34,676 nt of DNA. It comes from Lysobacterales bacterium (GTDB taxonomy: Bacteria > Pseudomonadota > Gammaproteobacteria > Xanthomonadales > Rhodanobacteraceae). The stretch's first letter is position 1; each line of letters begins with the position of its first letter. The notes beneath the pieces were generated by a model, which was not told the origin of the DNA, did no database searches, and saw nothing but the letters and a program-made list of their open reading frames with translations. The position numbers and the translations under genes were made by a program. The DNA is taken from positions 1 through 34,676 of the forward strand of contig JAFLDX010000009.1 in NCBI GenBank assembly GCA_017302215.1, given 5' to 3'. Positions 15,347 to 19,928 of the stretch are shown piece by piece.

Positions 15347-15970
15347 TCAGCGCCCCGCTTCTTCCTTCAGGGCGATCGCGTTGATGCCGCTCTCGGCCAG
15401 CGCCGCCTTGGCGGCCTCCAGTTCGCTCGCGCTGCCGTACGGACCGAGGCGCACGCGGTTCCAGGTCTTGCCGTTGATCGTGACCGGCTGGACCTGGGCG
15501 ATGAATCCCATCAGGGCGAGCTTGGCCTTCACCTCGTCGGCGCCCTTGGCGTCGGGATACGAACCGGCCTGCAGCAGGTAGCGGGCGCCGGCTTGCGCAG
15601 CCGGTGCGGTCGCTGCCGTCGCCGGCGTCGTTGCGCGCGCCGTCCTGGCCTGGGCCTCGGCGCGTGCCTTCGCGGACAGCTCGGCATCGGGTATCACGAC
15701 CTCCATCTCGGGCAGAACCGAGTAGAAGTCGTAGCTCTTCTTGCGTGTTTCCCTGGCGTCGGCCAATGGCGGCTCGCTTTCGCGCGGCGCCACGGCCTCC
15801 GGGTTCGGCTGCGGCAGGTTCTTGCCGCGCAGCACCGGCATCCAGTTGCCCGCGAGGAACACGCCGGCGACGACGAGACCGAGCAGGACGCCGATGGCGA
15901 GCCATATCCAGGCCGGCCAGGAGCGACGTCCTCCGCCGCGAGTGGCCTGTTTGCGGGATCGTGCAGCCAT
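15347..15970 (-). CDS. FtsN-like SPOR-domain membrane protein
   Basis: The 207-residue protein has a basic cytoplasmic N-terminus, one transmembrane helix (about residues 20-42: PAWIWLAIGVLLGLVVAGVF), a proline/alanine-rich periplasmic linker, and a C-terminal SPOR domain from about residue 129 (YLLQAGSYPDAKGADEVKAK ... NRVRLGPYGSASELEAAK). SPOR domains bind denuded glycan strands at the division septum, and FtsN activates septal peptidoglycan synthesis. Its ATG overlaps the argS stop by one base (TAATG). The same argS-SPOR order is found in pseudomonads and other gammaproteobacteria. Confidence 0.9.
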   Translation of the reverse strand: MAARSRKQATRGGGRRSWPAWIWLAIGVLLGLVVAGVFLAGNWMPVLRGKNLPQPNPEAVAPRESEPPLADARETRKKSYDFYSVLPEMEVVIPDAELSAKARAEAQARTARATTPATAATAPAAQAGARYLLQAGSYPDAKGADEVKAKLALMGFIAQVQPVTINGKTWNRVRLGPYGSASELEAAKAALAESGINAIALKEEAGR

Positions 15971-17655
15971 TACATGCTCTCCGGGGCGCCGACGCCGAGC
16001 AGGTCGAGGCCGTTGCGCAACACCTGTCGGGCCGCTTCGGCCAGGGCGATGCGCGCATCGCGCAGGACGACGTCGTCGACGATGAACTGGTGTGCGTTGT
16101 AGTACGCGTGGAATGCGGCCGCAAGCTCGCGCAGGTACTGGGCGACGAGTTGCGGATCGAGGTTGGCGGCCGCCGATTCGACCACCTCGGGATAGCGCGA
16201 GAGCTCGGCCATCAGCACGCGCTCGTGCTCGCTGTCGAGGCGAGCCAGGGCGTTGAGGCCCGCGCCGGCATCGACGGCGAGGCCGCGTTCGGCGAGCTGG
16301 CGGCGCACGCTGCATACGCGCGCGTGCGCGTACTGGATGTAGAAGACCGGGTTGTCGTTCGTCTGCGCGCGCGCGAGGTCGATGTCGAACACGAGCTGGG
16401 AGTCGGTCTTGCGCGCGACCAGGAAGTAACGCGTGGCGTCCCGGCCGACTTCGTCGATGAGGTCGCGCAGCGTCACGTAGCTGCCGGCGCGCTTGGACAG
16501 CTTGACCTCCTCGCCCCCGCGCATGACGGTGACCATCTGATGCAGCACGTATTCCGGCCAGCCGTTCGGGATGCCGATGTCGAGTGCCTGCAGGCCGGCG
16601 CGCACGCGCGTGACGGTCGAATGGTGGTCGGCGCCCTGCTCGTTGACCACGCGCTCGAAACCGCGGCGCCACTTGTTCTCGTGGTAGGCGACGTCGGGCA
16701 CGAAATAGGTGTAGCCGCCCTGCGCCTTGCGCATGACGCGGTCCTTGTCGTCGCCGAAGGCGGTCGTGCGCAGCCACAGCGCGCCGTCCTGTTCATAGGT
16801 GTGGCCGGCGGCGACGAGGTCGCGCACGGTGTCGTCGACCTTGCCGTCGGCATACAGCGATGACTCGAGGAAATAGACGTCGAAAGCGACGCCGAACGCG
16901 CGCAGGTCGAGGTCCTGCTCGCGCCTCAGCCAGGCGACGGCGAAGCGGCGGATCGCCTCGAGATCGTCGGCGTCCGCGCGCGCGGTGACGTCGCGGCCGT
17001 CGGCCTGCACGGTGGCCCCGGCGAGGTAGTCGCGCGCGACATCGCGGATGTAGTCGCCGCGGTAGCCATCGGCCGGCCAGCCCTCCTGGTCGGGCTCGAC
17101 CCCCTTGCAGCGTGCCTGCACCGACAAGGCGAGGTTCTCGATCTGCGCGCCGGCGTCGTTGTAGTAGAACTCGCGCGTGACATCCCAGCCGTTCGCCGCG
17201 AGCACGCGGCTGAGACTGTCGCCGACCGCGGCGCCGCGTCCATGGCCGACATGCAGCGGGCCGGTCGGATTGGCCGACACGAACTCGATCTGCACGCGAC
17301 GGCCGCCGCCGGACGCGTTGCGGCCGTAATCCGCACCGAGCGCGTGGATGCGACGCATCTCGTCGTGCGTCGCCGAATCGGCGAGGAAGAAGTTGATGAA
17401 GCCCGGTCCGGCAATCTCGATGCGGGCGAGGCGCGTGTCGGACTGCAGTCGGGCTCGCAACGCCTCGGCGATGTCGCGCGGCTTGCGTCCCGCCGACTTG
17501 GCGAGGACCAGGGCGGCATTGCTGGCGAAGTCGCCGTGCTCGCGATTGCGCGTGCGCTCGACGACGAAGGCGGCGGCGGGGCCATCGGGCAGCAGGCCGC
17601 CCGCGCGCAGGTCGGCGAGCGCTTCGAGGATCAGCTCGCGCAGGGCATCTTTCAC
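15970..17655 (-). CDS. argS: Arginyl-tRNA synthetase
   Basis: The 561-residue class I synthetase charges tRNA-Arg. The N-terminal additional domain ([20 protein letters not shown]) is followed by the catalytic domain, with [19 protein letters not shown] (HVGH as the HIGH motif, near 133) and [13 protein letters not shown] (the KMSKS-like loop, near 385). The anticodon-binding helical domain ends with [15 protein letters not shown]. The GTG at 17655 is chosen: it gives the family start ([13 protein letters not shown]) and length, and a good -10 element (TACAAT) overlaps the alternative ATG at 17688. It forms an overlapping pair with the SPOR gene. Confidence 0.96.
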
Positions 17656-17686
17656 GTCGGGAGTTCGGCTGGCGGCGGGGCCGCGC

Positions 17687-17715
17687 ATTGTAGAGCGAGC
17701 CTGCGCGGGTCGGAA
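17687..17715 (-). promoter_or_regulatory. Candidate promoter for argS
   Basis: TTCCGA (17710-17715) and TACAAT (17687-17692) on the minus strand are separated by exactly 17 bases. Transcription would start near 17680, downstream of the ATG at 17688, which supports the GTG start at 17655. Confidence 0.5.
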
Positions 17716-18060
17716 CCGCCGCCTACGCGACACGGGCGGCAATGCCGGCAGGCGCTTGCGTCGAATTGCTCGGTCGAACGCAAGGAACCAGCGCCAAAGG
17801 CTTGTCACCGAAGCGCAAATGCGCGCATGGCACAGGCTGTGGATAACTGTGTGGGAATGCGCGGGCGGGGATTCCCCGGGGTTTTTGCGTTGTCAAGCGA
17901 AATTCCGGCACATTTTCGCTGGACTTCGTTCAAGTTGTTGATATGGAAGGATTTCAAGCGAGCATGACAAACGCCGGCGTGGATCGGCGCCGGTCCGATC
18001 CGGCTCCTCTGGAATGTGTATAGAAATCGGCGTACGGCCGTCGACGATCCAGCGGATGCC
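17716..18060. other. Non-coding interval between argS and the phosphohydrolase gene
   Basis: About 345 bases with no supported gene. The part 17880-17975 is markedly richer in A and T than its surroundings. The features I can see are an exact DnaA box (listed separately), a G/C palindrome followed by five T residues around 17875-17887 that may act as a weak terminator, and a 6-bp inverted repeat GCGAAA/TTTCGC near 17899-17922. Frames crossing it have no family resemblance. Confidence 0.6.
17838..17846 (-). promoter_or_regulatory. Exact DnaA box (TTATCCACA)
   Basis: The minus strand reads TTATCCACA, the high-affinity DnaA binding sequence, within CCACACAGTTATCCACAG. It is a single perfect copy about 180 bases upstream of the argS start. 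Whether it binds DnaA in the cell is not shown by sequence. Confidence 0.5.
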
Positions 18061-19122
18061 TCAAAGCAGGCCGGCCACGGTCTCGCCGTACGCCTTGAGC
18101 ACCTGGGTGCCGCTCTCCGGCCGTCCCCTGACGGCGATCCGCGCACGCAGGCCGAGGCTCAACGACTTCAGGCGCTCGGCGTTGGCGGCCTTGTCGCGTT
18201 CGAAGGTTGCGCGACCGAGCTCGGAGTGGAAGCGGTGCAGGTCGAAGAAGAACCGGTCCTGGCCGTCGGTCAGGAATCCCAGCACTGGCTGCGCGCTCTC
18301 GCCATGGTCCAGGTTGCGCCGGCACAGCATCTCGCGCTCGCGGCACAGGTTGGCCGCGGTGATGGCGAAATGCGCAAAAGGCTCGGCGACATTCGCGGTA
18401 TCGAGATCGGCGGCGATCAGGGCGAGGTCGAGTGCATGGCGGATGCGGGCATCCTCGCGCCAGCCCGGACGGTGCTTGTCGAGCTTGCGTTCGAGTTGCG
18501 AGGCGAGCGCACCGCCCGACTGCACGAGCTCCGCGGCGTTGAAGGCGGCGCCACCTGGTGGCGGGCGCGCATCGAACGTGCTGCCGTCGATCATCAGGTC
18601 GAGGGCGAGGTAGAGATCCGCGTCGGCCTGCTCGTCGAAGCCGACCTGGCGGAGGAGTCGAAAGGACTCCTCGAGGCTGGCGCGTTCGTTCGCACCGACT
18701 CCGGCGGCGTAGAGCGGCTGCTCGCGCTGGCGCAGGTCGTGGCATGCGGCGAACAGGCCGAGTGCACACCAGTCGCGCAGCGACAATGCGTGGATGCCGC
18801 GTGCTTCGATCAGGCGGTCGATGCGGGTCCCGAAGATCTCGAGGATGTGTCCCTCGTTGTGGTACGCATGGAAGTCCGTGCTCCAGCTGCCATGCCGGCG
18901 CGCCAGGCGCGCGTAGGCGATGCGGATCGCCTCGTCGACTCGGGCGAGCAGCGTTGTCGAGCCCTCCGGTCCGCACAACGACGCCAGCCGCTGCCGCCGC
19001 GCGGCCAGCGCCGCATCGATCTCGGCGAGGCGCTCGCCGGCGCAGGCGCGCACCGCTTCACCGTCGACAAGTTCGATCTCGGTGGCATCGGGTGGATAGG
19101 TTCGCGGGAAATCGAAGATCAC
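18061..19122 (-). CDS. Predicted metal-dependent phosphohydrolase, HD/PDEase-like
   Basis: I know no named family for this 353-residue protein, but it carries a full set of candidate metal ligands in the order of HD/PDEase enzymes. These are HAYHNEGHILEIF (HNxxH, near 86), LGLFAACHDLRQRE (the HD pair, near 124) and LALIAADLDTANVAEP (a later Asp, near 237). The spacing and the words HNxxH, AACHD and AADLD-x-x-N recall class I cyclic nucleotide phosphodiesterases. The second His of their HDxxH signature is Gln here. No signal peptide or membrane helix is seen. The GTG at 19122 is the only reasonable start (MIFDFPRTYPP) and has a TATACT -10 upstream. Substrate unknown; it could equally be another HD-superfamily hydrolase. 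Confidence 0.65.
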   Translation of the reverse strand: MIFDFPRTYPPDATEIELVDGEAVRACAGERLAEIDAALAARRQRLASLCGPEGSTTLLARVDEAIRIAYARLARRHGSWSTDFHAYHNEGHILEIFGTRIDRLIEARGIHALSLRDWCALGLFAACHDLRQREQPLYAAGVGANERASLEESFRLLRQVGFDEQADADLYLALDLMIDGSTFDARPPPGGAAFNAAELVQSGGALASQLERKLDKHRPGWREDARIRHALDLALIAADLDTANVAEPFAHFAITAANLCREREMLCRRNLDHGESAQPVLGFLTDGQDRFFFDLHRFHSELGRATFERDKAANAERLKSLSLGLRARIAVRGRPESGTQVLKAYGETVAGLL

Positions 19123-19265: not shown

Positions 19266-19928
19266 TCAGATCCAGCCGCGCTGGGCGAGCGAGGTCGGCG
19301 TGCCGCTGCCGACCACGAAGTGGTCGAGCACGCGCACGTCGATCAGGGCCAGGCTGTCGCGCAGGCGCACGGTGATCGCGCGGTCGGCACTGCTCGGCTC
19401 GGCGACGCCCGAGGGATGGTTGTGGGCGAAGATGACCGCCGCCGCATTGTGCGCGAGGCAATGGCGCACGACCTCGCGCGGATGCACGCTGGCACCGTCG
19501 ATCGAGCCGCGGAACAGTTCCTCGAAGGCGATCACGCGATGGCGGTTGTCGAGGAACAGGCAGGCGAACACTTCGTACGGATAGCCGCCGAGGCGCGACT
19601 TGAGATAGCGCGCGCTCGCCGCGGGATCGGTCAGGCTGTCGAGTTCGCGCAGCTCGGCATCGAGATAGCGCCGCCCGACTTCGAGCGCCGCCTGCAGGCG
19701 ACACCATGCGACAGTCCCGAGTCCGTCGACCGGCCGTACGGCGGTGAGCAGGGCTTTCAGGCCGCCGCTCGCGCCGAGCAGGTCGCGACCGACCTCGACC
19801 GCGCTGCGGCCGCGCCGGCCCGAGCCGACGAAGACCGCGAGCAGTTCGGCATCGGAAAGCGCCTGCGCGCCGCGCGCCTGCAGCTTCTCGCGCGGTCGCT
19901 CGCTGTCGGGCCAGTCGCGGATGCTCAT
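19266..19928 (-). CDS. radC: RadC-family JAB/MPN+ domain protein
   Basis: The 220-residue protein has the RadC layout. The N-terminal helix-hairpin-helix part includes [20 protein letters not shown], and the C-terminal metalloprotease-like JAB domain has [18 protein letters not shown] (HxH...D zinc ligands near 168) and a preceding Glu. Despite the name, a direct role in recombination repair has not held up, and the substrate is unsettled. The start ATG 19928 gives the family N-terminus ([16 protein letters not shown]). Divergent radC-coaBC is the arrangement found in many gammaproteobacteria. Confidence 0.95.

Follow-up and report, generated by a model that had tools for sequence, protein, structure and literature searches.

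PDEx, a bacterial protein family with a predicted class I phosphodiesterase fold, a conserved HDxxQ site and an association with class III cyclases

In animals, cAMP and cGMP are controlled by class I phosphodiesterases (PDEs), which are also major targets of drugs. In these enzymes (PDE4D2 numbering), H160 is the general acid and metal 1 is bound by H164, H200, D201 and D318. D201 also bridges metal 2, which is otherwise bound by waters that residues of the second shell, H204 among them, keep in place; the purine is recognised by Q369 and clamped by F372. In bacteria, the usual cAMP phosphodiesterase is CpdA. A review describes metal 2 of class I PDEs as water-based, their glutamine switch, and HD enzymes as diverse in their substrates (PMC8177086). 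Class I PDEs are given as eukaryotic only, the bacterial enzymes falling into classes II and III, and class III is recognised by the motif D-GD-GNH-GHxH (PMC4222275). One bacterial case calls for caution: SpdA of S. meliloti, encoded at a cyclase locus, hydrolyses 2',3'-cAMP and not 3',5'-cAMP (PMC4222275). Linkage to a cyclase can therefore mislead.

In this study, we analysed a gene, here named PDEx, in a stretch of bacterial DNA of 34,676 nucleotides (the window). The original prediction, drawn from the letters of this stretch, suggested that the gene might represent a new bacterial nucleotide phosphodiesterase family. Profile searches, the predicted fold and the genomic associations of PDEx all favour a class I PDE-like enzyme. 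We found no description in the open-licence literature of this family, or of its pairing with a class III cyclase that carries an FHA domain (cyclase-FHA).

The PDEx gene and its conserved residues

The minus-strand reading frame of PDEx opens with a GTG at 19122, the start position kept across its homologues, and its stop ends at 18061. Homologues share 26-73% identity across the length of the protein. In public genomes they are carried by 45 loci, the best of which is from Dokdonella immobilis, at 74% identity. Among 60 relatives of the window genome, 26 carry PDEx, in one copy each. Given homologues that align along the full protein, the motifs named below are not a product of chance; the frame is a real gene. 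One homologue (G332:C8:19047-19988) has an in-frame TAA and is either a pseudogene or an assembly error. The gene and the segments discussed below are as follows.

18061..19122, minus strand: PDEx, whole gene, 353 aa, GTG start (open reading frame; start kept among homologues; 60-member family)
18847..18864, minus strand: YHNEGH, residues 87-92; H88 pairs with PDE4D2 H160 (general acid) and H92 with H164 (metal 1) (profile alignment)
18721..18741, minus strand: HDLRQRE, residues 128-134; H128 pairs with H200 and D129 with D201, and Q132 replaces H204 (profile alignment)
18667..18696, minus strand: GANERASLEE, residues 143-152; E146 pairs with E230, S149 stands for H233; N145, S149 and E152 invariant (profile alignment)
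18574..18585, minus strand: GSTF, residues 180-183, conserved, at the place of the PDE 'LATDM' (matched by eye, the automatic alignment being gapped here)
18391..18414, minus strand: AADLDTAN, residues 237-244; D239 pairs with D318 (metal 1) and N244 with N321; extra invariant D241 (profile alignment)
18250..18261, minus strand: Q288-x-x-F/Y291, aligned with Q369, the invariant Gln for the purine in PDEs, and with F372, their aromatic clamp (profile alignment, low-posterior end)

The original prediction rested on three motifs, HNxxH, AACHD and AADLD-x-x-N, and on the loss of the second histidine of the HDxxH signature. Both observations hold in an alignment of 60 PDEx sequences. The motifs are all present, in order and conserved, as HNEGH (residues 88-92), AACHD (125-129) and AADLDTAN (237-244). 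There are 22 invariant columns, including H128, D129, Q132, N145, E146, S149, E152, D239, D241, E262, Q288 and F298; among the motif residues, H128, D129, Q132, D239 and D241 are thus identical in 60/60. H88 and H92 occur in 59 of the 60 members, the remaining one being a gap in a truncated sequence, and N244 likewise in 59. The HDxxH site reads H128-D129-L-R-Q132, with glutamine in 60/60 members, so the replacement of the histidine is a fixed feature of the family and not a sequencing error. The GxNExxS segment is one that we take to resemble COG4339-type HD proteins; a search of the 60 relatives with a DNA pattern of the COG4339 kind found none of these.

Residues were assigned by a realigned profile comparison between the PDEx family and PDEs, given in PDE4D2 numbering, in which pairing was automatic and without manual intervention. 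This comparison pairs Y87 with Y159, H88 with H160, N89 with N161 and H92 with H164 in the first motif; H128 with H200, D129 with D201, Q132 with H204, E146 with E230 and S149 with H233 in the central region; and D239 with D318 and N244 with N321 in the third motif. Q288 is paired with Q369 and F291 with F372 towards the end of the alignment, where posteriors are low; the first position holds Gln in 60/60 members and the second Phe or Tyr in 60/60. Altogether, PDE4D2 residues H160, H164, H200, D201, E230, D318, N321, Q369 and F372 map to positions conserved in at least 59 of the 60 members (the last as F or Y). On the basis of this pairing, PDEx appears to keep the general acid and the sites for metal 1 and for the purine. 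The water shell of metal 2 appears altered, with H204 replaced by Q, H233 by S, and N145, E152 and D241 as extra invariant residues.

Sequence searches and predicted structure

The original prediction had called the protein unrecognisable, and single-sequence searches of Pfam, NCBIfam and PDB sequences were indeed all empty, even at E<=10. Scanning all 60 members against NCBIfam gave chance-level matches only. In Pfam, the family matching most members was PDEase_I (PF00233), with 6/60 and a best E of 5e-5; the best member scored 23.5 bits, below the gathering cut-off of 24.8. A family HMM searched against PDB sequences returned five matches, all class I PDEs and all weak (E 0.6-2). The class III PDE motif is not found in PDEx, nor did PDEx match any metallophosphoesterase model of Pfam or NCBIfam.

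We then compared the PDEx family by hhalign with a PDE profile built from four human PDE catalytic domains, identical to PDB chains over the aligned range, with one residue near the PDE10A start left out. The score was 42.1 (E 6e-5, for a single comparison), and 100 column shuffles reached at most 20.2. A bacterial HD family with the pattern YHNxxH...HDIGY...TRFP, represented by L105, L106, L108, L109 and L111, scored 50.4 against the same profile. Since this family scores as high as PDEx, the YHNxxH...HD match alone is not specific for PDEs, and the profile evidence would place PDEx near the PDE branch of HD proteins while leaving its substrate unfixed. The profile searches gave no clear assignment to another known family, and the proposal of a new family stands on this point. 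When the PF00233 profile was run on 349 Pseudomonadota genomes, it gave ten matches, mostly sub-threshold; those read belong to other HD families and served as controls. Separately, a pseudomonadotal protein (L103, G560) with the PDE-like segments YHNAHH...HDFEH and VLATD lies just above the Pfam PDEase_I cut-off.

The AlphaFold2 model of PDEx, made with the family alignment, is helical, with a mean pLDDT of 92.5 and a pTM of 0.92, and confidence is low only around residues 187-194. Its H...HD...D metal motif sits on an all-helical predicted model, as expected of the HD superfamily. In Foldseek against the PDB, the best 50 rows listed were class I PDEs (prob 1.00, TM about 0.4-0.5), with E values of 2.4e-3 and up, never below 1e-3. 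The best 50 entries listed by VIA-align 2 are likewise class I PDEs, each a different entry, with Z values from 19.1 down to 18.1. These alignments cover 247-276 residues (261 for the entry at Z 19.1) within PDEx residues 11-353, at 10-16% identity. For reference, mostly helical models that lack a clear match typically reach a best Z of 14, and at rank 50 a Z of 6 (up to 13). The match of PDEx thus exceeds what a common helical arrangement would give. No non-PDE HD fold was among the 50 best structural rows listed. A viral structure library held no confident relative, and its better-named rows were phage HD proteins. Thus the model, compared with the PDB, resembles class I PDEs over nearly its whole length. 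For the suggested placing of the three motifs around one metal site, this match and the profile pairing of the motifs with PDE metal ligands are indirect indications.

The same comparisons bear on a different substrate. PDEx could be an HD-superfamily phosphohydrolase for another nucleotide (a 2',3'-cyclic NMP, ppGpp, a nucleoside mono- or triphosphate, or a cyclic dinucleotide), its PDE likeness reflecting the shared HD fold. We consider this unlikely, and yet the strongest of the alternatives. It draws on the substrate diversity of HD enzymes (PMC8177086), on the SpdA precedent (PMC4222275), on the equally good profile match of the L105-type family and on the second shell of PDEx, which differs from that of PDEs at Q132 and S149. 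Against it stand the structural matches, the best 50 listed being class I PDEs throughout, and the C-terminal Gln, which is invariant and followed three positions later by an aromatic residue. Such a pair is a feature of the PDE pocket and aligns there, at the low-posterior end. The association and operons with cyclic nucleotide cyclases, described next, also argue against it.

Class III cyclases and genomic setting

Class III cyclases were counted as PF00211 matches at E<1e-10. They occur in 25/26 PDEx carriers vs 4/34 non-carriers among the 60 relatives (P 1e-11), in 13/13 vs 1/23 within the window's own family (P 6e-9), in 4/4 vs 1/22 when that family is counted by genus (P 3e-4) and in 60/67 vs 43/183 across 250 genomes of the order (P 7e-22); all four P-values ignore shared ancestry and are descriptive only, and the co-occurrence counts are inflated by kinship. 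The seven carriers without a cyclase match are mostly incomplete or fragmented assemblies.

Outside the families with operons, one and the same cyclase-FHA protein was found at full length in all 26 carriers checked, scoring 370-527 bits and spanning 286 or more of 293 positions; 9 of these 26 genomes were seeds of the cyclase-FHA model. In the window genome, it is encoded at L126:2372-3397 (G000, contig 113), matches Pfam Guanylate_cyc and FHA, and is the sole strong class III cyclase. No operon of PDEx with a cyclase was found in this genome, the cyclase lying on another contig (C113). Where read, the cyclase-FHA motifs are KTIGD and DVxGDAVNxAAR, whose Lys and Asp are presumably the ATP-selecting positions. 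A clear cyclase-FHA without PDEx occurs in G016, G059, G347 and G360, of which the last two are incomplete assemblies, and a weaker one in G363 and G364.

Direct linkage was found in three loci of two other families, where a cyclase with a CHASE2 domain (CHASE2-cyclase) lies directly upstream of PDEx.

L127:3150-6426 (G054), same strand: CHASE2-cyclase, then PDEx
L128:5996-9303 (G413, same genus as G054), same strand: CHASE2-cyclase, then PDEx
L131:4875-8211 (G379, another family), same strand: CHASE2-cyclase, then PDEx

In L127 and L131, the end of PDEx is overlapped by the start of the next gene, which encodes a secreted, cytochrome-like protein rich in CxxCH.

Linkage to a cyclase would fit a regulator as well, and no member has an intact HDxxH signature; PDEx might then be an inactive PDE relative acting as a non-hydrolysing cyclic-nucleotide sensor or cyclase regulator. 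We regard this as quite improbable, because the general acid and the four metal-1 ligands are kept in every complete member and pseudoenzymes rarely keep these.

G042 and G052, which belong to the family of G379, have the CHASE2-cyclase and no PDEx; they carry CpdA-like genes instead, one of them 5-7 kb from the cyclase. These metallophosphoesterase genes (L194:10133-10987 and L195:2818-3672) lie beside a putative membrane transporter, as judged by eye. An E. coli-type CpdA model at E<=1e-10 found nothing in the window genome or its nine congeners. The CpdA-like genes in the two genomes without PDEx and the lack of a CpdA match in the window's genus make it plausible that one cAMP phosphodiesterase has been replaced by another. 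A CpdA-like gene is nevertheless present in several other carriers of PDEx.

At its own locus, PDEx lies between two housekeeping genes.

19266..19928, minus strand: radC, upstream neighbour of PDEx (Pfam RadC; synteny)
15970..17808, minus strand: argS, downstream neighbour of PDEx, with its true start inside the open reading frame (Pfam; synteny)

In most carriers, the gene order is coaBC / radC, PDEx, argS and a gene for a SPOR-domain protein. The order radC-PDEx-argS is kept in many genera, and PDEx sits elsewhere in several families. In relatives without PDEx, radC and argS still adjoin, a few hundred bases apart, so PDEx behaves as a separate unit that is either there or missing at one fixed site. 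In L014 and L015, radC and PDEx are about 3.3 and 3.4 kb apart and PDEx and argS about 5 kb, with genes resembling those of exported or TonB-type proteins in between.

The distribution is patchy within one gammaproteobacterial order, where 67 of 250 genomes have PDEx, as a single copy, and the gene is nearly missing outside this order. In a draw of 349 Pseudomonadota genomes, it was found only in the window genome and one genome of the same family, and in a draw of 274 genomes of the class only in the window genome and one incomplete genome. A role outside nucleotide signalling, such as tRNA or DNA metabolism with radC and argS, would suit the gene order kept in many genera and is the least probable of the alternatives, since PDEx is missing from the same interval in many relatives, sits elsewhere in several families and follows the cyclase rather than radC, which is present in all 60 relatives. 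A role as a defence protein was also considered and rejected: no PADLOC model matched PDEx at E<=0.1, and it is a single-copy gene at a housekeeping locus.

Proposed function and comparison with known systems

The simplest account of PDEx, and in our judgement the likely one, is a phosphodiesterase for cAMP (or cAMP/cGMP). The gene, its conservation, the match of its predicted fold, the co-occurrence with cyclases and the operons are observed; that it is a catalyst, on which substrate and with which metals, and what each residue does, we infer. More precisely, it is probably a soluble bacterial 3',5'-cyclic-nucleotide phosphodiesterase, with cAMP as the probable substrate, a class I PDE fold and an HDxxQ second-metal shell. 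Its occurrence almost only in cyclase-carrying bacteria, combined with the PDE-like predicted fold, suggests that PDEx probably switches off a cAMP signal that is little known in bacteria. Restraint in this reading is called for, since a signature histidine is lost throughout the family, HD enzymes act on diverse substrates and SpdA sets a contrary precedent.

As a phosphodiesterase, PDEx would hold metal 1 through H92, H128, D129 and D239, and a metal-bound water would attack the cyclic phosphate. H88 would protonate the leaving 3' oxygen, and Q288 and F/Y291 would hold the purine. In most carriers, PDEx would thereby end the signal of the cyclase-FHA encoded elsewhere in the genome; in the two other families, the signal would come from the CHASE2-cyclase encoded directly upstream. 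More tentatively, PDEx and cyclase-FHA may together make up a cAMP module of two genes, so far undescribed, in one gammaproteobacterial order. The partner that degrades cAMP would then be a bacterial branch of the class I PDE fold whose metal centre has been remodelled (HDxxQ, DLD); it would stand in for CpdA and might use another metal or another number of metals.

A bacterial family with the class I fold and an invariant change at a textbook position of the active site would bear on the origin of class I PDEs, and on the role of the HDxxH histidine. Moreover, bacteria without a detectable CpdA would gain a candidate route to end a cAMP signal, with its partner cyclase named.

By Pfam and the HDxxH signature, PDEx is not a class I PDE; by its predicted fold and most of the aligned active-site residues, it resembles one. 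With the eukaryotic enzymes (PDE1-PDE11 and trypanosomatid PDEB; PF00233) it shares the predicted fold over the whole protein and, in the same order, the putative His for the general acid, the four ligands of metal 1 and the Glu of the second shell. The Gln for the purine and the aromatic clamp may follow in that order, being aligned at the low-posterior end. It differs from them in having HDxxQ for HDxxH, Ser for His233 and a two-residue insertion giving D-L-D-T-A-N. Furthermore, it is bacterial, only 10-16% identical, below the Pfam cut-off and free of regulatory domains. The class III PDEs of the CpdA/Icc type have in common with PDEx the proposed role, removal of cAMP in bacteria, but have a metallophosphoesterase fold and motifs that PDEx does not match. 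The L105-L111 bacterial HD families share the HD-superfamily metal motifs and the YHNxxH...HD segment, whereas they have HDIGY after the HD and no detected counterpart of Q288. Finally, CAPE of Marchantia resembles PDEx and its cyclase in bringing together a class III cyclase and a PDE-type domain of class I (PMC5159850, PMC8115329). CAPE is one eukaryotic fusion protein, whereas PDEx and the cyclase are separate bacterial genes, and PDEx has a variant predicted metal site.
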